Positions 28,695 to 38,216 of a stretch of DNA of 64,000 bases are shown in pieces. The stretch is taken from NCBI RefSeq assembly GCF_032050975.1, contig NZ_CP116967.1, positions 2,539,001 through 2,603,000 on the forward strand, in the 5' to 3' direction. The stretch is from Candidatus Nitrospira allomarina (lineage in GTDB: Bacteria > Nitrospirota > Nitrospiria > Nitrospirales > UBA8639). The notes beneath the pieces are model-generated. The model was given only the letters and a program-made list of their open reading frames with translations, made no database searches and was not told the DNA's origin. A program made the translations under genes and the position numbers. Each line of letters begins with the position of its first letter. Within the stretch, counting starts at the first letter, position 1.

Positions 28695-29168
28695 TCAACG
28701 TTGTTGTGAATTTGACCACGATCTGATCGGCACCGTCGAGATTGAATTTTTGGGTGAGCCTTCGATCACTTTATCGCTGTAGACGAGATATATGAATGTC
28801 TGACGCTTCTTGTCAAAGAATCGGACCACCTGCAGTTTTTTAAATATCAGTGATCGACTCTCGTGAAACACTTTCTCTCCTTCTTCAAGCTCATCAATGA
28901 TGCGAATGGGACCGACCTGGCGGCAGGCAATTGAGGCATCTGAAGTGTCCTCAGCGACACCAACCATGCCTTTTAAGCCCCCTGTCTTCGCTCTACTCAG
29001 ATGACAGGTGACTCCTTCAATCTTGGGATCATCAAACGCTTCAATCACAATTTTGTGATCAGGACCCAAAAAATTGAATTTTGTATCCACACTTCCGATT
29101 TCCTCCGCATAACTCGAAGAGACGATCAGAACCGAAAAGAATAGAATGTTTAAGAAAATTTTCAGCAT
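28695..29168 (-). CDS. creA: CreA family protein
   Basis: A 157-residue exported protein. The signal peptide ([21 protein letters not shown]) is followed by [19 protein letters not shown], the conserved [20 protein letters not shown] and IACRQVGPI. These are diagnostic of CreA. CreA is a widespread periplasmic protein of unknown function encoded beside creBCD in E. coli; no creBCD is here. I start at 29168 because AAGGGAGA lies upstream and the signal peptide then begins at the first residue. An in-frame start at 29207 is less likely. The gene is downstream of the ACIII/bd-like operon end but separated by a gap. Confidence 0.88.
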
Positions 29169-29304
29169 GTAGGCATTCTCCCTTACCCGATTTTTTACCA
29201 TGTCCAATATGAATAATTTGATGGACTTTACTTTACTCTATGGTCCCTATGACTCAAAACTGGACAAATTCGATACCCCTTCATCAAGAACGTCCAGGCC
29301 GGAC

Positions 29305-30639
29305 CTATTGGGACAAAATGCCCTTTTCCGAAGGAGTGGCTTGATACGTGGATTGTTCGTCCTCCAACCGCATCTCATCATAAATGAGGTATCCGTTGAC
29401 TGCTCGAGCGGATTCGCGAACCCATCCCATGGCTAAAAGAATGATCACCGTCAATACTGCCAACGTCATCAACATACCCGCCATCCTTCGCGGAGCTGCG
29501 GACACGGCTCTTGAAACGGTGGCTTGTGGCATTCGCCCAAACACCCGCAAGGAGTACAGCCAATGTGCAAATCCAAAGGTCACAAGACTTGAAAGCGCAA
29601 AATATTTATACGGTTGCATCTTCCCAATGGAGTTAATTTCCTGTTCGGTCAACCGATTGAGAAGAGGGATATGCTGCAATTGATAGGGCATCGCCAACGT
29701 CACGGTAGCGATCACGATGACAATGAGTGACAAGGGGATGAATCCCATGAAAGATGGAGGTGGTTGTGATTGAGACCGAACCATCTGGTTAACATACAGA
29801 GAACCGACCAGTATCAATAATCCATACAACAACGCCGCGACATCAAAAAGCCACGAGCGTTCTCCTAGCATCACGGTATAAAAGGCCTGGGGTTGTCCAT
29901 ATCGCAAATGAAGCAAATACTGATATCCCACGACCGGCATGACCAGCAGAGCTCCATAGCCGATTACAAAACAGTAACTTCCCCCTTTATGGAAAAAGTT
30001 TCGATCTATATCAATGGTAGATTTCAGATATCGGACGCCACAGATCCCACCGAGGGCAAAACCCGCCCAAGTCAGATTGCCGAACCACCGGTGAAGATCC
30101 AAATGAATCATCGTGGGATTAAACACATTCTCCCATGCCGAATGAATGGGATCCGGGGTCAGCATGTAGGAAGCGGTGATATCGATCATAAACATGGCAC
30201 TTAGGGCACAGCCTGCGGCAAGCCAGATAAAGGCCAAGTGCACCTTTTGCCTCCACCCATGCCGTCCCCATTCCCAGAGGTAATACCAGGCATAGGCAAA
30301 AATCGCTTCTCCCAAAAACAATGCCGCCTCTCCCAAAAACGGCCAAAACATTACCTGAAACAGACGGTGCCAGAATTGAGGCCAATAGATGTTCAGCGCA
30401 AACACCAGCACGACGCCAAAAAATGAAATGGTTGCAGTGGAAAGCACCAATGCGAAGGCAATCAGCTTGGCCAACCGTTGGAACCATTCTTTTTCCGTGA
30501 CAAAGCTAAATGTTGCAGTCACCGCGCCGATTAAGGATGATCCCACAATGAACGTGGCAAATAAGCTATGCGTCAGTGCAGAAGCGGCAATCGCCACACG
30601 CCCGATGGTCATAGAAGTTTCAAGTGGATCAAGGGTCAT
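29305..30639 (-). CDS. Cytochrome bd subunit I-like protein B (with heme-ligand glutamates)
   Basis: A 444-residue membrane protein with about nine helices, homologous to cytochrome bd subunit I. His24 (ALTHSLFATFIVG) matches the TM1 heme ligand. Glu104 and Glu111 (FLGEAALFLGEAIFAYAW) match the acidic pair around heme b595. His183 (DLHRWFGNLTWAG) matches the heme b558 ligand. The quinol loop and GRQPW motif of true bd oxidases are absent, so quinol is an unlikely direct donor. It is the last gene of the operon and overlaps its paralogue by four bases (ATGA). I infer it is the oxygen-reducing subunit of an ACIII-linked complex. Nitrospira is known to carry divergent bd-like oxidases. Confidence 0.8.
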   Translation of the reverse strand: MTLDPLETSMTIGRVAIAASALTHSLFATFIVGSSLIGAVTATFSFVTEKEWFQRLAKLIAFALVLSTATISFFGVVLVFALNIYWPQFWHRLFQVMFWPFLGEAALFLGEAIFAYAWYYLWEWGRHGWRQKVHLAFIWLAAGCALSAMFMIDITASYMLTPDPIHSAWENVFNPTMIHLDLHRWFGNLTWAGFALGGICGVRYLKSTIDIDRNFFHKGGSYCFVIGYGALLVMPVVGYQYLLHLRYGQPQAFYTVMLGERSWLFDVAALLYGLLILVGSLYVNQMVRSQSQPPPSFMGFIPLSLIVIVIATVTLAMPYQLQHIPLLNRLTEQEINSIGKMQPYKYFALSSLVTFGFAHWLYSLRVFGRMPQATVSRAVSAAPRRMAGMLMTLAVLTVIILLAMGWVRESARAVNGYLIYDEMRLEDEQSTYQATPSEKGILSQ

Positions 30640-31820
30640 GGGAATGTCTCTCCCCTCAATGTCGATTCCGTCTGACTGTTGATCATTCCACGAATGGTAT
30701 CCGGCCCTCTCGCCACTTCCCGGATGGTTCCCATTGTCAAATAGAGGACCAGCGCGGCCAGACCAAGGGCCATGGCGATGAAGTGAATGAACGGTTTGTT
30801 GAGTGAGGGCGTTGAGCCACGCATCCAAACGGGAAACACATACAAAAGGTACCACCCCGTTTGAAGAAGCACGATAAAATTCACGATACGCCGATACAAT
30901 GGATAGGGCGCCAAAATGACCATCAACACGATCGTCAGCACATAAAATATCTCTGCCCGGTAGGAATGTCCCCGTTCCAGATGCACCGAGCGAAAAATGA
31001 GATGACTGCCTAACAGGAGTAGAGCCAGGAGGGTAAATTGCCATATCACCAACAGGACTGTTTGGCCTTTATAGAGACCCTGCAGAATATCCGGCTGTGC
31101 ATGGTGTATGTGTTGCGCGAATACGAAACCGGAGACCGGCTGAATCATGAGGCTCACAATGCCGACGGCCATACCTGTTTTTATGAGCGTGAGGTAATAG
31201 GCCTCATCCTTCATTTGACCCGATTGTTTCCATAGGCGCCATCCGGCATACGCCGCCATGACATATCCGGCGATGACCAGATTTCCAAAGAATCGATGGA
31301 CCATCAAGGGCACCCATGTCGGGTTCCAGAGCCTTGCCCATCCGCTATCGCCTTGAACAGGAGTCATCATATACGAACCGATCCCGTCAAGAATTCCTCC
31401 CCATATCAGAATGAATACGGCGGCTACCGTACCCAACGTGATATGCCAGGTGATACTTTTCGAACGAAGCCGATCCCAAAAGTGATAATAGGGATACAGG
31501 CACAACACTTGAATGAAAAACACGATCAAAGCCAGATGCAAAGGATAGCGGAAGTGGTTAAACAGGTAGGTATTCGTGAGAGGGAAAAGTCCGATGAATA
31601 ATTCCAACATAAAGACAGCCAACACGATGCTGGTGGTATACGTCACCAGCGTAAATCGTGTGGCCAGATAGGCAAAATCCGTAAAATAGGGACGACTGCG
31701 TCCCAATCCTTCCGCGATAGGCGCCAGAACCATGAATCCCACACCAAGACTCGCCAAGGTAATATGGGCCAAACTAAAAAAGCCGATCCAAAAACTTGAA
31801 CTCGTCATCTCGTTTACCAC
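30636..31820 (-). CDS. Cytochrome bd subunit I-like protein A (lacking the glutamate pair)
   Basis: A 394-residue membrane protein, paralogous to its downstream neighbour. Shared landmarks are SYMMTPVQ and NPTWVPLMVHRFFGNLVIAG, the latter carrying the b558-type histidine (His175). His19 sits in TM1 (LAHITLASLGVG). A gapless alignment of the TM3 region puts Ala97 and Gln104 where protein B has Glu104 and Glu111, so the b595/d site should be lost. It probably acts as a structural or electron-entry partner, loosely like CydB, although it is not CydB by sequence. The start is GTG 31820 or ATG 31808. It follows actE by about 20 bp in the same operon. Confidence 0.78.
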   Translation of the reverse strand: MVNEMTSSSFWIGFFSLAHITLASLGVGFMVLAPIAEGLGRSRPYFTDFAYLATRFTLVTYTTSIVLAVFMLELFIGLFPLTNTYLFNHFRYPLHLALIVFFIQVLCLYPYYHFWDRLRSKSITWHITLGTVAAVFILIWGGILDGIGSYMMTPVQGDSGWARLWNPTWVPLMVHRFFGNLVIAGYVMAAYAGWRLWKQSGQMKDEAYYLTLIKTGMAVGIVSLMIQPVSGFVFAQHIHHAQPDILQGLYKGQTVLLVIWQFTLLALLLLGSHLIFRSVHLERGHSYRAEIFYVLTIVLMVILAPYPLYRRIVNFIVLLQTGWYLLYVFPVWMRGSTPSLNKPFIHFIAMALGLAALVLYLTMGTIREVARGPDTIRGMINSQTESTLRGETFP

Positions 31821-31839
31821 ATTTCCACAGACGCGTTAA

Positions 31840-32361
31840 TTAACCCGGCGAATTCGGGTTTTGGATCAAAAGACTGGCGGATGGCGCATGATCCGAAAAA
31901 GTCCGAAGGAATGCCACCAAGGCCCATCTTTCTTCCTGAGAAAGAAATGGTTCAAACGCGGGCATCACATTTTCTCCATGAGTGACAATGGTATACAGCA
32001 TCTCATCCGGTTTCTGTTGCACCGCCGAAGCGTGAAGATTGGGGGGCAGGTCGGGCAGATACCCGGCCACCGGTCCGTCACCCATTCCCTGTTCTCCATG
32101 ACAATGGGCGCAATTAATTGCAAAGAGACGTGCGCCATCGGTCGATTCTTTGGTCTGTTCCCGCGGAGATGTAGTAAGGGAAAATGGCGTCATATTCGGA
32201 GAGCTTTCCGGCGGTGAATGCACCCGGGGAGCTTCTTGATACGAAAATGAAGGTTGTTCTTCCATATCTTCCGAGCATCCCCACAGAAACAGCCCAGCCA
32301 ACGTGATCCAACCCAGGATACGGAACGAGCGGTTCAAACCAAAATTATTCAGCATCATCAT
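31840..32361 (-). CDS. actE: ActE-like monoheme cytochrome c lipoprotein of alternative complex III
   Basis: A 173-residue protein. The signal segment ends in a lipobox (FLWGC, about residue 29). A disordered linker rich in Pro and Ser precedes a class I cytochrome c domain with heme motif CAHCH (in FAINCAHCHGEQGMGDGP) and probable methionine ligand in GENVMPAF. In ACIII, ActE is the periplasmic monoheme subunit that can hand electrons to an oxidase. Three consecutive ATGs make the exact start uncertain. It lies 6 bp after actD and directly before the bd-like genes, the position expected for an electron bridge. Confidence 0.85.
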   Translation of the reverse strand: MMMLNNFGLNRSFRILGWITLAGLFLWGCSEDMEEQPSFSYQEAPRVHSPPESSPNMTPFSLTTSPREQTKESTDGARLFAINCAHCHGEQGMGDGPVAGYLPDLPPNLHASAVQQKPDEMLYTIVTHGENVMPAFEPFLSQEERWALVAFLRTFSDHAPSASLLIQNPNSPG

Positions 32362-32367
32362 CGGCCC

Positions 32368-32916
32368 TCATGAGTCACTGGAAATGGTCCGAATTTCCAC
32401 TTCAGAAGCTCCGGCTTTTTGAAGCAGGCGGGATATAGAGTGGGCCTTGGCAGTGTCATTCCCAACCTGAATCGATAAACCTACCGATCCCTCATCAATG
32501 CGCGGGTCATTGCGAAGACCCGACTGTTGCACGAAGGCAATTTTGATCGCTGTCGCTAAAAAGGTCACGACAATCGCCATCAGCATCATGGTTTCATAGG
32601 AGATAATTCCCACCACCGGAATACTCACAATGGGTTTCCCTCCCGTCACTAAGGGAAACAGGAGTGCGGTTCCTGCGGCGAAAAATATCCCGATTCCAAT
32701 TCCCACGATCCCTCCGATAATGGTCAGGCGATGGAGCGGGACGCGAACCGGCTTATTGAGCAAAGAGGTTTCCAGCGGAAGAGGAGAGAGAATTTCCATA
32801 AGGAGATCGGGAATGCCCTGGCTTCGTATGTGATCAAGCACAGGAGGGAGAGAAGTCGCCGGATTGAATAATCCCAGCACCACGTGCCTGTCCGTCGTCT
32901 CAGTGTTCTTGGGCAT
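32368..32916 (-). CDS. actD: ActD-like DUF3341 subunit of alternative complex III
   Basis: A 182-residue protein with DUF3341 features. An N-terminal alpha/beta part opens HVVLGLFNPATSLPPVLDHI. Two membrane helices follow (about 63-90 and 98-125, TIIGGIVGIGIGIFFAAGTA and ISYETMMLMAIVVTFLAT). The polar C-terminal tail reads LLQKAGASEVEIRTI. ActD has no cofactor and helps assemble the ActC/ActF membrane part. Its start lies inside the end of actC (17-bp overlap), showing tight coupling. The order C-D-E is conserved among ACIII operons. Confidence 0.88.
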   Translation of the reverse strand: MPKNTETTDRHVVLGLFNPATSLPPVLDHIRSQGIPDLLMEILSPLPLETSLLNKPVRVPLHRLTIIGGIVGIGIGIFFAAGTALLFPLVTGGKPIVSIPVVGIISYETMMLMAIVVTFLATAIKIAFVQQSGLRNDPRIDEGSVGLSIQVGNDTAKAHSISRLLQKAGASEVEIRTISSDS

Positions 32917-34228
32917 GTTTTTTCCCCAGTTTTTCTTCCCAGATCGAAATCACCGGTACGAATTTCACCGCAAGCGAATACAGCAGGAGAGCCAAGGCCA
33001 ACGTGCCTACCAGAATGGCGAACTCTATCAGCGAAGGGAAATACTCATCCCACTGAAATGAGAGCCTCGGATGGGCAAGGGGAGGGACAATGATCAGCAT
33101 GCGCTCGATATACATGCCGATATTGATGATCAGCCCAACCATCAGGAGTCCTACGGGCCATTGTCGAAAACGAGGCCATATCAGCGTCATCAGGGGAATG
33201 ACATAAATACAACTCACCATGAACCAGAAGGGCACGGCATACGCTCCGTAGAGAAGAGAATTCTGCACGGCAATATGATCGGGCATATTGCCATACCAGA
33301 CAGTTAATTGCTCAGCAAAATACAGATAGGCCAGGAGCAGGGTCGTGACCAGCATCAATTTCCCGAGTTTTTCAAAATGTTCGGTTCGAACATAATCATG
33401 CAGACGATACACCCTGCGCAGGGTATACAGCCCAATCACCACCATCCCCAAGCCTGAGTGCACCGCGCCGACCACAAAATAAGGAGCAAAAATAGTCGAA
33501 TGCCATGCCGGCACAAGAGCCATGCTGAAATCAAATCCGACAATGGAATGCACCGAGATCATGACCATCACGATCAGGGGGGTAATAATGCGTATGGCCA
33601 TTTCCAATGTGCGCCACTGCGCTTGAGATCCATGCCATCCTATCGCCAGCCAGCGATACACGGTTTTTCTCCATCCTTGAATTCGATCCCGTGCCAGCGC
33701 AAAATCGGGAATTAAGGGCAGATAAATATAGATGGTGCTTGCGGTCGCATACGTAAAAATGGCTGTAGCATCCCACATCAGCGGAGATCGAAAGTTCGGC
33801 CAGAGTTCCCGTTGATTGGGGTATGGAATCAGATAATAAAACCGCCAGACCCGACCCAGGTGATAAAAGACGAATAACGCGGTGACGAAAAGGGCCACAA
33901 CGGTCATGAGCTCAGCCATACGCGTGACAGGTCGACGCCATTCGGCATTCGTTAACCGCAAGACACCGGAAATAAACGTTCCGGAATGGCTGACGCCGAT
34001 CCAGAAGACGAACGAGGCAATATAGGATCCCCAGAAAATGGGATGATGCAAATTGGTTTGTCCGATACCCGTTTGAATTTGGTACGTCCACGCTCCCGCC
34101 CCCGCTGCGACAAAGCAGGACAACACGCCTACCCAGAGATAATACGTCCAGGTGGTTGTCTGGAGCGGCAAGAGAAGGTCCCGATTGATCTTGGGCATTT
34201 CCTCCCAAACCGTTGGCCGGTCGGTCAT
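32900..34228 (-). CDS. actC: ActC-like NrfD/PsrC-family quinol-binding membrane subunit
   Basis: A 442-residue integral membrane protein with about ten helices, matching NrfD/PsrC. Landmarks are the N-terminal amphipathic PKINRDLLLPLQTTTWTYYL, then WGSYIASFVFWIGVSHSGTF and VHSIVGFDFSMALVPAWHST. In ACIII, ActC holds the periplasmic-side quinol site and passes electrons to the iron-sulfur subunit. Only one NrfD-type gene is in the operon; classical ACIII also has ActF. It overlaps actB2 by four bases (ATGA) and actD by 17. Confidence 0.9.
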   Translation of the reverse strand: MTDRPTVWEEMPKINRDLLLPLQTTTWTYYLWVGVLSCFVAAGAGAWTYQIQTGIGQTNLHHPIFWGSYIASFVFWIGVSHSGTFISGVLRLTNAEWRRPVTRMAELMTVVALFVTALFVFYHLGRVWRFYYLIPYPNQRELWPNFRSPLMWDATAIFTYATASTIYIYLPLIPDFALARDRIQGWRKTVYRWLAIGWHGSQAQWRTLEMAIRIITPLIVMVMISVHSIVGFDFSMALVPAWHSTIFAPYFVVGAVHSGLGMVVIGLYTLRRVYRLHDYVRTEHFEKLGKLMLVTTLLLAYLYFAEQLTVWYGNMPDHIAVQNSLLYGAYAVPFWFMVSCIYVIPLMTLIWPRFRQWPVGLLMVGLIINIGMYIERMLIIVPPLAHPRLSFQWDEYFPSLIEFAILVGTLALALLLYSLAVKFVPVISIWEEKLGKKHAQEH

Positions 34229-34962
34229 TCCGACAGCCTCCGCAAATAGGTCACGGCCGGATGCGTGCCCAGAGATTCCATCAAATGAAATCCTCTCCGG
34301 CTCTTCTTCAAGTGAGACACCCGGCTTTCGGGATCGTTCCGATCACCAAAAATCAGTGCGGATGTGGGACAGGATTGCACACAGGCGGGTGTGATTTCTC
34401 CATCTCTGACCCGCCGGCCTTCTTTGTGAGCTGCTTCTTTTCCACTTCGAATTCGTTGCACGCAAAATGTGCATTTTTCCATCACACCGCCGGATCGGAC
34501 GGACACATCCGGATTCAACTGCTCCGCCAACGGCTCGTCCCAATGGGGATCGAACCAATTAAATTGACGGGCGACATAGGGACAGTTATTCCCGCAGTAT
34601 CGAACACCGATACACCGATTATAGACCTGGGCATTCAACCCCTCCGGGGTGTGATACGAAGCATAGACGGGGCAGACGGGTTCACAGGGAGCATCGTCAC
34701 AATGCTGGCACATGACCGGAAGGAATTTGGCTTTGACGTTGGGATAGTCTCCTTCCCAATATCGCTCAATGCGAATCCAATTAATCGCTCGCCCCTCTGC
34801 GGCTTCCTCCTCCCCGGAAATGCGAATATTGTTTTCGGCATGACACGCCACTACACAGGCTTCACATCCGGAGCACCGATCCAGATCGACGACCATTTCC
34901 CACTTATAGGACGATGCCGCCGTGTTTGAATATTCTTCCGTTGCTTGAGGATCTTGACTCAT
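34225..34962 (-). CDS. ActB2-like iron-sulfur subunit of alternative complex III
   Basis: A 245-residue ferredoxin-type protein with four cluster motifs: CSGCEACVVAC, CQHCDDAPCEPVC, CIGVRYCGNNC and CTFCVQRI paired with CVQSC. In the third, Val replaces the usual second cysteine. That is the hallmark of a [3Fe-4S] cluster in ACIII ActB proteins, so three [4Fe-4S] and one [3Fe-4S] are predicted. It carries electrons from the quinol site to the heme subunits on the periplasmic face. No signal peptide is present; it is likely co-exported with ActB1 through its Tat signal. Its start overlaps the actB1 stop (TAATG). Confidence 0.88.
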   Translation of the reverse strand: MSQDPQATEEYSNTAASSYKWEMVVDLDRCSGCEACVVACHAENNIRISGEEEAAEGRAINWIRIERYWEGDYPNVKAKFLPVMCQHCDDAPCEPVCPVYASYHTPEGLNAQVYNRCIGVRYCGNNCPYVARQFNWFDPHWDEPLAEQLNPDVSVRSGGVMEKCTFCVQRIRSGKEAAHKEGRRVRDGEITPACVQSCPTSALIFGDRNDPESRVSHLKKSRRGFHLMESLGTHPAVTYLRRLSE

Positions 34963-37157
34963 TACAAACCTCCCGTTTCCTGTATACGCCCGATGACAGG
35001 GTTTTTCCCGAATTCCTCCAACATCGGCAACCGCGATCCGCCTTTGAGGCGCTCAACACGAACCCGCGTCCCTCCTGTGGCCAGAGAACCCGATTGACTA
35101 TCAAAACTAGGACCAAGCAAGGCCATGGGATTAACTCCGCGCCCCTTGGCATATCGTCCGTACGCACGGTGACCCTGGCCTATGGGAACGGCAATCATGT
35201 CAGGATGCAAGCCTGGAAACATCATGGCTGAGGCTTCGATCGACCCATAATCCGACGTGACTCGAACCCGGTCGCCGGGATGTATTCCTAACGCCTGCGC
35301 CGTGGTTGGATTGAGTTCAATCCAACTTCCCCACATGCCGGTGGTGAGAGGATCCGGCAATTCTTGAAGCCAGGGACGATTGGCCCCACGCCCATCATGC
35401 AACCCCAGGGACGGATAGGGATAACAATATAGAGGGTAGTCGGCGGAATCCCCCAGGAATTGCGGCGGTTCATAGGTGACGGAGGGTATGACCGGGTTCA
35501 TCTGGCGCATGGGGATGTGGGAAGGCCACAACCCGCCCTCCTGCAGAGTCTCTCTCCAGCCGGTATCAAATGGCTGTGCCGAGTCATACTTCGTTAAGAC
35601 AGTCTGCCATCGGCTCTTCAGCATTTCGTGAAGGGTATTCCATGGAACCCGTTCACGGAGAGGTCCCCCCAATCGATGAGCGGCGTCCAACCACACATCA
35701 CCGATGGGCCTTGTGTCATAGAGCACACCCACCACAGGTTGCGATACACTCCAGACCGGCACGGGGTTCGTATCCTGTTGAACAACCTCCCCCCAGGATT
35801 CCAGCGGGTCATGATCCGGCAGAATCAGATCAGCCATCATAGTCGAGTCATCAAGGAAGGAACTAAAACTTACGATGAATTGCGCATGGTCAAACACCCG
35901 CTCAAATTCCAGTGACGGTGGAAGGGTGAACAGAGGATCGGCGCGATATAGATGAAGCAGGGTGCGGGATCCTTGTTCAAACTCCCGGGCCAAATCCATG
36001 AGCGTCCGCTCACTGGCCAATCCGGGTCGGGCAAGATCCACCGGCGAGATTTGAGGTTCCATCCACTGGAGTCCGCCGCGCCGTCCGATAGCGCCGATCA
36101 TCACGTTGAGTGCGTTAATGAGGATAAGAGTTGTTGTGCCGTTGGTCTGGGCCGCAGCCGGACCCCCACCCAGAATTAGCGGAGCGTTCGCTGATGTCAG
36201 TTCATGCGCCAGTTGGGTGATCACCTCTTTCGAGACTTCGGTATTGGCCGAAATATCTTCTAATGAGAAAGCAGTAAAGGTTTGGTGAAAAGATGTCCGG
36301 TGAAAGGAAGAAAGTCTTGTCAGGCCATCCCGTAATAAGACCTGTCCAATGCCCATCGCCAGTAACCCTTCGGTTCCCGGCCTAAGAGGAATCCATTGAT
36401 CCGCATTCGACGCGGTGAGGGACAGGCGCGGTTCCACCTGAATAAAACGACCTCGAACCAACGGGCGGCCCTGACGGAATTTTCCATAGGCCACACCAAA
36501 AGACACTGGTGAGAGCCAGTGTTCAAGGAATGGTGCACCGAATGACAAGAGGTAATCCGCATTGGCCAGGTCATAATAAGGAAGGTCATGGGTTCCAAAG
36601 CTGAGATGGTTGGCTGTTCTGAGAGTCTGTTCCCCCGTGGATTCATACATCACAAGACGACCGGATAGGGAATCCAACAATGTTGTCAACAGGCTGGCTA
36701 ATGTGCCTGACACCGGACGGGTAATCATCGCGGACTTTCCGGCATGCGTTCGTAACTGCTCCACCCATTCTGTTAGGCCTTCTTCCCAGGTAATCGGCTG
36801 GAATTGGCCTTGACCTCTTTTGCCTTCACGTCTTAGAGGACCTTGAAGGCGGTCGGGATTGTACAGACCCTGAAGGGCGGCTTGTCCCCGGGCACAGAGT
36901 TTCCCCTCATTGACCGGATGTTTGGGATTGCCTTCAATTTTTTTTGCGCGCCCTTCCATCACACGAACTATGGTCCCGCAACCGGCTTCGCATTCCTGAC
37001 ATGTGGAGGCATACCAATTTGCTACTCCGGGAACAATATGGTCGTCCGGCAACAGATAGGGCACGAGGTTATGCACCTCTCGCTCACATCCTGGCAGGGA
37101 TGACCCGGCTGCTGTCAGTCCAAGAATCTTCAATAGAGTCCGGCGATTTAGGTCCAT
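34962..37157 (-). CDS. ActB1-like molybdopterin-oxidoreductase-fold subunit of alternative complex III
   Basis: A 731-residue protein. The N-terminal Tat signal (NRRTLLKILG) overlaps a lipobox-like LPGC. The molybdopterin-oxidoreductase fold follows, with a C-terminal beta-barrel domain (about 600-700, including LNPTTAQALGIHPGDRVRV). The N-terminal iron-sulfur motif CQECEAGC plus LCARG is complete (CX2CX3CX27C). In ACIII the large fold is generally thought not to bind molybdenum. Whether this copy binds a cluster or cofactor is open, because its four cysteines are intact. ActB is split into two genes here rather than fused. It lies 12 bp after actA. Confidence 0.87.
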   Translation of the reverse strand: MDLNRRTLLKILGLTAAGSSLPGCEREVHNLVPYLLPDDHIVPGVANWYASTCQECEAGCGTIVRVMEGRAKKIEGNPKHPVNEGKLCARGQAALQGLYNPDRLQGPLRREGKRGQGQFQPITWEEGLTEWVEQLRTHAGKSAMITRPVSGTLASLLTTLLDSLSGRLVMYESTGEQTLRTANHLSFGTHDLPYYDLANADYLLSFGAPFLEHWLSPVSFGVAYGKFRQGRPLVRGRFIQVEPRLSLTASNADQWIPLRPGTEGLLAMGIGQVLLRDGLTRLSSFHRTSFHQTFTAFSLEDISANTEVSKEVITQLAHELTSANAPLILGGGPAAAQTNGTTTLILINALNVMIGAIGRRGGLQWMEPQISPVDLARPGLASERTLMDLAREFEQGSRTLLHLYRADPLFTLPPSLEFERVFDHAQFIVSFSSFLDDSTMMADLILPDHDPLESWGEVVQQDTNPVPVWSVSQPVVGVLYDTRPIGDVWLDAAHRLGGPLRERVPWNTLHEMLKSRWQTVLTKYDSAQPFDTGWRETLQEGGLWPSHIPMRQMNPVIPSVTYEPPQFLGDSADYPLYCYPYPSLGLHDGRGANRPWLQELPDPLTTGMWGSWIELNPTTAQALGIHPGDRVRVTSDYGSIEASAMMFPGLHPDMIAVPIGQGHRAYGRYAKGRGVNPMALLGPSFDSQSGSLATGGTRVRVERLKGGSRLPMLEEFGKNPVIGRIQETGGL

Positions 37158-37169
37158 GGTTGTTTTCTT

Positions 37170-37688
37170 TTACTTGTGACAGATCCAACAATCGTGAGAG
37201 GCCCCCCGTTGTTCATGGCAGGTCAAACACCAGCCCATTTCATAGGTAGGTGCTCTCGGGGTGCTCGACATGCGGGCAACATTTCCATGGCATGAGGTGC
37301 AGGACAGGCCCGCGAACAGATGCATTTCATGCGTGAAGTAGACATGATCCGGAAGACGCTGCAGTCGGACCCATGGAATCGGCCGTTGTTCTTTCCAATA
37401 GATCTGCAGCATTTTCATACCCGGTGTCTTTTCAGAAAGGGACTCATGACACGTCTGGCACAAGGCCATGGACGGCACCCCGGCCACTGGAGATTGCGTG
37501 GCATACCGATGACAAAATTGACAATGGATGTTCAATGTTCCCGCATGTTGTCGATGGCTAAACCGTACAGGTTGCTGATCTTGAACGGGCAGGTCGGCAC
37601 TTCCGATGGAATACAGTGCGCCGATCCCCGTGGCCACACTTCCGGCTAACAACGCCAAGATGACTCCCTTAATTCTTCCTGACTTCAT
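37170..37688 (-). CDS. actA: ActA-like pentaheme cytochrome c of alternative complex III
   Basis: A 172-residue protein with an uncleaved or signal-type N-terminal helix (about 8-28). It has exactly five CXXCH heme motifs (CQFCH, CQTCH, CTSCH, CLTCH, CWICH), plus distal histidines such as RFSHRQHAG and FTHEMHLFAG. A pentaheme ActA with one membrane helix is diagnostic for ACIII. It collects electrons from the ActB clusters on the periplasmic side. It is the first gene of the operon, so the promoter should lie between it and the PRC-barrel gene at 37773. The ribosome binding site is weak. Confidence 0.9.
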   Translation of the reverse strand: MKSGRIKGVILALLAGSVATGIGALYSIGSADLPVQDQQPVRFSHRQHAGTLNIHCQFCHRYATQSPVAGVPSMALCQTCHESLSEKTPGMKMLQIYWKEQRPIPWVRLQRLPDHVYFTHEMHLFAGLSCTSCHGNVARMSSTPRAPTYEMGWCLTCHEQRGASHDCWICHK

Positions 37689-37772: not shown

Positions 37773-38216
37773 TTACCGGGCTTTAAGATTCTGAGGAATT
37801 TGATCCGGCGTTGAGTAGAATTCCCGTATGAGGAATTTCCACTTTTCATCCTTCATGTCCGGCCAATCGTTTTTATTAAAGCCTGGTGCCTTTTCCAATT
37901 TTTCCGGCTGAATATCCAGAGTCAAATACTCGCGATCCGGTTGGTGAGCCAGCGAGGTCCAGGGCACAGCAAAGAGCTTATCACCAACACCCAAAAATCC
38001 TCCGAAGGATAGAACGGCATATCCGACTTCTCCATTGCTTCCAATAACCAATTCCTCAATCTGCCCAATATCTTCGCCTTGCAAATTCTTGACGGATTTT
38101 CCAACCAGCTCACTGGCTTTGTAGGAGCCCTGGTTAGGAGTAATGGCTACGGATTGAGAAAAGGGCGCCAGGAATAGGATGGAGCCGAAAAACATCATGA
38201 GAAAGAGTGGTGGCAT
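37773..38216 (-). CDS. Exported PRC-barrel domain protein
   Basis: A 147-residue protein with a signal peptide (about 1-24, LFLAPFSQSVA). One PRC-barrel domain (about 33-95) opens YKASELVGKSVKNLQGEDIG and reads QIEELVIGSNGEVGYAVLSF then LFAVPWTSLA. PRC-barrels are small beta-barrels found in ribosome maturation factors, photosynthetic reaction centres and many stress proteins; exported versions have no settled role. It lies 84 bp upstream of the ACIII operon on the same strand and could be its first gene, though the gap allows a separate promoter. Confidence 0.85.
   Translation of the reverse strand: MPPLFLMMFFGSILFLAPFSQSVAITPNQGSYKASELVGKSVKNLQGEDIGQIEELVIGSNGEVGYAVLSFGGFLGVGDKLFAVPWTSLAHQPDREYLTLDIQPEKLEKAPGFNKNDWPDMKDEKWKFLIREFYSTPDQIPQNLKAR

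Follow-up and report, generated by a model that had tools for sequence, protein, structure and literature searches.

An alternative complex III operon running into a pair of cytochrome bd-like subunits in Candidatus Nitrospira allomarina, a predicted quinol:O2 electron-transfer module

Within the 64,000-nucleotide stretch of the genome of the nitrite-oxidizing bacterium Candidatus Nitrospira allomarina that was analyzed here (the window), ORF calls and Pfam searches identified eight minus-strand genes at positions 29305-37688 that overlap or lie at most ~20 bp apart (Table 1). The genes are arranged in the order actA-B1-B2-C-D-E-bd2-bd1 with gaps or overlaps of -17 to +19 bp, and the bd2/bd1 junction is an ATGA overlap. 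A first-pass annotation of the window had described an eight-gene alternative complex III (ACIII) operon with a split ActB and two bd-like proteins, and both the ORFs and the Pfam assignments agree with this description.

Table 1. Genes of the ACIII-bd operon (window positions)
Gene	Position	Strand	Product and features
actA	37170-37688	-	Pentaheme cytochrome c, five CxxCH; N-terminal membrane helix
actB1	34962-37157	-	MopB-like subunit; Pfam Molybdopterin, Molybdop_Fe4S4, and Molydop_binding domains
actB2	34225-34962	-	Four-cluster Fe-S subunit; 4Fe-4S ferredoxin domains (Pfam)
actC	32900-34228	-	NrfD-like subunit, predicted to oxidize quinol; Pfam NrfD
actD	32368-32916	-	Membrane subunit; Pfam ActD, 3.3e-21
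actE	31840-32361	-	Monoheme class I cytochrome c, one CxxCH; Pfam Cytochrome_CBB3, 2.9e-17
bd2	30636-31820	-	CydA-like (CydA'-like) subunit; start GTG at 31820 or ATG at 31808
bd1	29305-30639	-	CydA-like catalytic-type subunit; Pfam Cyt_bd_oxida_I

A 579-aa ORF for the last gene, bd1, was rejected as an over-extension because conserved homologues place its start at window position 30639. The flanking genes were not accepted as operon members either, since both the CreA-family gene downstream (creA, 28695-29207) and the PRC-barrel gene upstream (37773-38216) adjoin the operon only in close relatives. A scan for transcription signals detected one weak promoter-like site upstream of actA (37925-37898); the scan as a whole was uninformative, with promoter-like sites being rarer than in shuffled sequences and terminator-like sites being scattered across coding sequence.

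The Act proteins were compared with ACIII structures using phmmer. ActA matched the A subunits (8k9e_A, 1.1e-30; 6f0k_A, 5.1e-29), ActB2 matched residues 795-1026 of 6f0k_B (E = 5e-76), and ActC matched 6f0k_C (E = 2.8e-85). In ActB2, CIGVRYC aligned with CIGTRYC of Rhodothermus marinus ActB, which is the [3Fe-4S] signature with a cluster Cys replaced. ActB1 contains a CX2CX3CX27C [4Fe-4S] (FS0) motif (C53, C56, C60, and C88) that is invariant in 18 homologues; its structure matches are ArrA and ActB, the best-scoring PDB match being the arsenate reductase ArrA. Residue mapping revealed a complete quinol site in ActC (H123, S148, D153, and D233, corresponding in R. marinus ActC to H139, S164, D169, and D253) that is conserved in 20 sequences, and nearly all residues of the R. 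marinus ActC proton half-channel are conserved in the 20 ActC homologues (residue lists from PMC8076601). Together, the pentaheme ActA and monoheme ActE, which are the only c-type cytochromes in the operon, the quinol-site residues of ActC, and the [3Fe-4S] site of ActB2 agree with the features of an ACIII. ActB1 of an ACIII would be expected to have neither a Mo cofactor nor an Fe-S cluster; here, the Mo ligand is lost, and the FS0 Cys motif is invariant. A missing ActF does not disqualify it, since ActF is a variable feature and actF-less ACIII has been documented in other phyla (PMC12342949).

In both bd-like proteins, the Pfam match to Cyt_bd_oxida_I covers only the first ~240 family positions. 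The predicted models of bd1 and bd2 were of moderate confidence (pLDDT 78 and 83, respectively), and their nearest folds in a Foldseek comparison, which did not locate heme ligands, were CydA chains (TM about 0.45-0.65), with CydB matching more weakly. Residues were assigned by alignment to CydA, at positions H19, E99, E107, H186, E445, and R448 in E. coli numbering. Equivalents of all six, which cover the O2-site and heme-ligand positions, are present in bd1 (H24, E104, E111, H183, E409, and R412), the match to E445 needing a one-residue deletion in the alignment, and all six are invariant in 19 sequences. Met-341 of bd1 (M341) is also invariant and, judging from its position, may stand for CydA M393. 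The bd2 protein has H14, H170, E363, and R366 as the equivalents of H19, H186, E445, and R448; thus, three heme-ligand positions are kept (H19, H186, and E445 equivalents, in 20/20 homologues), and both acidic O2-site residues (E99/E107 equivalents) and the Met ligand are lost. In each of the five remaining bd-like proteins of this genome, Ser occupies the E445 position and E99 is missing. As the first-pass annotation had stated, neither subunit has a canonical quinol loop: the loop is shortened in both, and the alignment revealed the quinol residues K252/E257 in neither bd1 nor bd2. Lacking the K252/E257 quinol loop and a CydB partner in the operon, the pair falls outside canonical cytochrome bd.

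The operon sits in a complete 4.55-Mb genome, in which actD is the single match to the ActD family. A whole-genome search for the COX1 family gave no match, indicating that a heme-copper oxidase is absent, and a second NrfD-type gene, ActF, was not found because the sole NrfD-family protein of the genome is ActC itself. The nine CydA-family matches comprise two canonical cydA genes and seven bd-like genes, bd1 and bd2 included; a CydB-like gene directly follows each canonical cydA, both pairs lying outside the operon, and CydB was not found inside it. These genome-wide counts (COX1 0, NrfD 1, CydB only elsewhere) bear out the first-pass claim that the operon lacks ActF, CydB, and a heme-copper oxidase; the outcome that had been set against it, ActF and a heme-copper oxidase encoded just outside, was looked for throughout the genome and neither gene was found, so that a hidden copy elsewhere is also excluded. 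For 'Ca. Nitrospira allomarina VA', a closed genome that encodes ACIII but no cbb3 oxidase has been described (PMC10579370).

Two further bd-like loci of the same genome were recorded. A 697-aa bd-like gene with a Cyt_bd_oxida_I match (L074:5811-7904; genome positions 346810-348903, minus strand) lies directly upstream of genes for nxrA/nxrB-like 1157-aa molybdopterin and 448-aa 4Fe-4S proteins, and its product may be linked to nitrite oxidoreductase. A second cluster (L073:7509-17112; genome positions about 1441500-1451100) combines two bd-like genes with a cytochrome b gene and several cytochrome c genes and represents a bc-type counterpart of the ACIII-bd operon.

Conservation of the operon was examined in 236 Nitrospirales genomes. 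ActD was present in 20/236 and a bd2 orthologue in 20/236; 19 genomes, including that of the window, contain both, with the genes adjacent and in the same order. Contig breaks account for the two genomes in which only one of the markers was detected: one contig stops inside actE (G049), and the other begins in actD (G233). The synteny of actA-E with the bd-like pair, which the first-pass annotation had proposed to search for, is thus conserved in all resolvable Nitrospirales cases. This co-occurrence and gene order are far beyond chance, and the 18 further genomes with the same order of the act genes and the bd pair rule out a sequencing or annotation artefact. The order is kept even though bd2 identity between families is as low as about 40-47%, and the full operon is also found in Candidatus Manganitrophus GAC4 (L063) and a class-level relative (G369; L084). 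Several family f3 genomes encode ActD and ActE as one fusion protein (348 aa at L041:5665-6708), in which the monoheme cytochrome is tethered to the membrane subunit. Trees of the act and bd genes for 17 taxa had 10/14 splits in common, and their distances were correlated with r = 0.86, a value reached in 0/5000 label permutations. This congruence fits joint inheritance, a pattern to which shared species history can also give rise.

Of 396 genomes sampled across the phylum, 23 contained ActD, and bd1 orthologues were detected only in Nitrospirales and the class-level relative G369. Weak ActD matches in two genomes were dropped, one sitting among unrelated genes (G483) and the other being below the cut-off and containing stops (G452). 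One genome (G476, L082:2324-12904) has actA-B1-B2-C-D-E without actF, followed by SCO1, COX1, and COX2-cytochrome c genes; the oxidase downstream of ActABCDE in this case is a caa3-type heme-copper oxidase. In a further relative (G286), ActABCDE has no adjacent oxidase, and two genomes (G251 and G342) have a probable actF, which was recognized from its BLAST match to ActC and gave no Pfam hit. Conversely, genes for a Rieske protein and a cytochrome b lie between homologues of bd2 and bd1 (37-40% identity) at L070:198-4561 and L069:2847-7122. This bc-bd hybrid operon occurs in Manganitrophaceae and another Nitrospirota genome. Thus, within one phylum, two kinds of oxidase accompany the ActABCDE core, and two kinds of quinol-oxidizing complex accompany the bd-like pair. 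This slot swapping is the best evidence that the bd-like pair acts downstream of quinol oxidation.

Based on these sequence features, we consider it probable (about 0.7) that the operon encodes a quinol:O2 electron-transfer module in which the bd-like pair fills the oxidase slot. The core of the first-pass proposal, that ACIII oxidizes quinol and a bd-like module takes this slot, is well supported by the synteny, active-site residues, and slot swaps; the supercomplex that it proposed is putative, and its alternative of reverse flow during nitrite-dependent growth gained no support here. ActC would oxidize membrane quinol at a periplasmic site, and electrons would pass via the [3Fe-4S] cluster of ActB2 and the pentaheme ActA to the monoheme ActE, a path modelled on the R. 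marinus structure (PMC5928083). For the remaining steps, we infer transfer from ActE to the bd1/bd2 pair and from the bd1 hemes to O2, with bd1 as the putative O2-reducing subunit and bd2 as a CydA'-type partner in place of CydB. Because a quinol site is missing from both bd1 and bd2, they would have to be fed by a c-type cytochrome. Like its counterparts in other ACIII, ActC is predicted to pump protons, and the lack of ActF would leave fewer pumping subunits. In the ACIII studied so far, the complex and its oxidase assemble into a supercomplex in which ActE is the direct donor (PMC5928083), and a similar physical association might exist here. That OR-N enzymes are cytochrome c-fed oxygen reductases is itself a published hypothesis for which experimental confirmation is still missing (PMC10839748). 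In N. marina at low O2, most electron-transport proteins are reported to change little, and the operon is not singled out in the published text. A more specific form of the proposal, which we regard as tentative, is that bd1/bd2 is a heterodimeric bd oxidase whose CydB-replacing subunit also binds hemes, so that ActE and the O2 site would be joined by an unbroken heme wire inside a single stable ACIII-bd supercomplex, with a fifth Fe-S cluster in ActB1; heme binding by bd2 is suggested because its H19, H186, and E445 equivalents are retained in 20/20 homologues.

The ACIII and the bd-like pair might instead each use a soluble cytochrome c pool, in which case the operon would serve only to co-regulate an additional terminal oxidase and a second complex III. 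The many c-type cytochromes and several bd-like oxidases of Nitrospirales, together with the ActABCDE of G286 that stands without a neighboring oxidase, would suit such an arrangement. However, linkage of the two modules is near-perfect across divergent families, the genes overlap tightly, bd2 and bd1 included, and besides ActA and ActE the operon encodes no c-type cytochrome, making separate pools rather unlikely. Electron flow in reverse during nitrite-dependent growth, with the bd-like proteins in another role, appears quite improbable. Reverse electron transport through complex III has been proposed for Nitrospira (PMC12324825), and the bd-like gene beside the nxrA/nxrB-like genes suggests that bd-like proteins may have other roles; yet bd1, in contrast to the other bd-like paralogues, retains every O2-site residue, and the operon is present in 20/236 Nitrospirales only, although all autotrophic members need reverse transport and nearly all Nitrospirales carry bc1 (PMC12342949).

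We also considered that ActB1 binds a functional molybdenum cofactor, which would make the complex a molybdoenzyme feeding electrons from its own substrate to the oxidase. The FS0 Cys motif, a recognizable Mo-dinucleotide-binding domain, and the best-scoring match to ArrA are features expected of such an enzyme, but the Mo-ligand Cys position of ActB1 is occupied by Gly, and no conserved residue is found there among the homologues. ActB is thought to be derived from ArrA-like proteins with loss of the Mo cofactor (PMC10100899), and the identical CX2CX3CX27C motif is present in ActB1 of iron oxidizers (PMC4643136), rendering this explanation very improbable.

If the preferred reading, a quinol:O2 module with bd1/bd2 as its oxidase, is correct, bd-type enzymes could act as oxidases for a complex III-type enzyme, beyond their role as quinol oxidases, and the operon would explain energy conservation by nitrifiers that have no heme-copper oxidase and oxidize low-potential donors such as formate or H2. 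Whether such a fusion of ACIII and bd operons had been described, a question raised by the first-pass annotation, is answered by a 2025 report of ActAB1B2CDE with OR-N5 CydAA' (PMC12342949). Since the arrangement is published, the value of the present analysis lies in testable predictions at the level of residues and modularity; what it adds to a known operon is modest and consists of residue-level detail, a class-level relative, and a comparison of slot swaps.

ACIII was reported in N. marina in 2020 (PMC8115632), and a survey in ISME J (PMC12342949) described actABCDE with a split actB and without actF/actG in 47 Nitrospirales genomes. In almost all of these ACIII-bearing Nitrospirales, the genes immediately downstream encode an OR-N5 CydAA' oxygen reductase, the two having probably been acquired together. 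The present operon has the same content as this actAB1B2CDE + OR-N5 CydAA' cluster, including the split actB, the lack of actF/actG, and the downstream bd-like pair, and we found no feature that distinguishes it. Two adjacent CydA-like subunits without CydB adjoining ACIII in a member of Nitrospirales correspond to OR-N5 CydAA', an assignment based on the published synteny statement (PMC12342949). For Candidatus Manganitrophus, bd-like proteins with complex III-like or ACIII-like components have been noted as terminal oxidase complexes TO_3 and TO_4 (PMC9040806, citing earlier work); the L063 operon and the L070 Rieske/cytochrome b cluster may correspond to these two complexes.

The supercomplexes ACIII-caa3 of Rhodothermus marinus and ACIII-aa3 of Flavobacterium johnsoniae (PMC5928083) have in common with the present operon the ActA-E core, an adjacent oxygen reductase, and the quinol-site residues, whereas the present operon lacks ActF, has a split ActB with the FS0 motif, and encodes a bd-like rather than a heme-copper oxidase. 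Unlike canonical CydAB, bd1 and bd2 lack the quinol loop and CydB and form a pair of two CydA-like subunits; what they share with it is the CydA fold and several heme-ligand positions.
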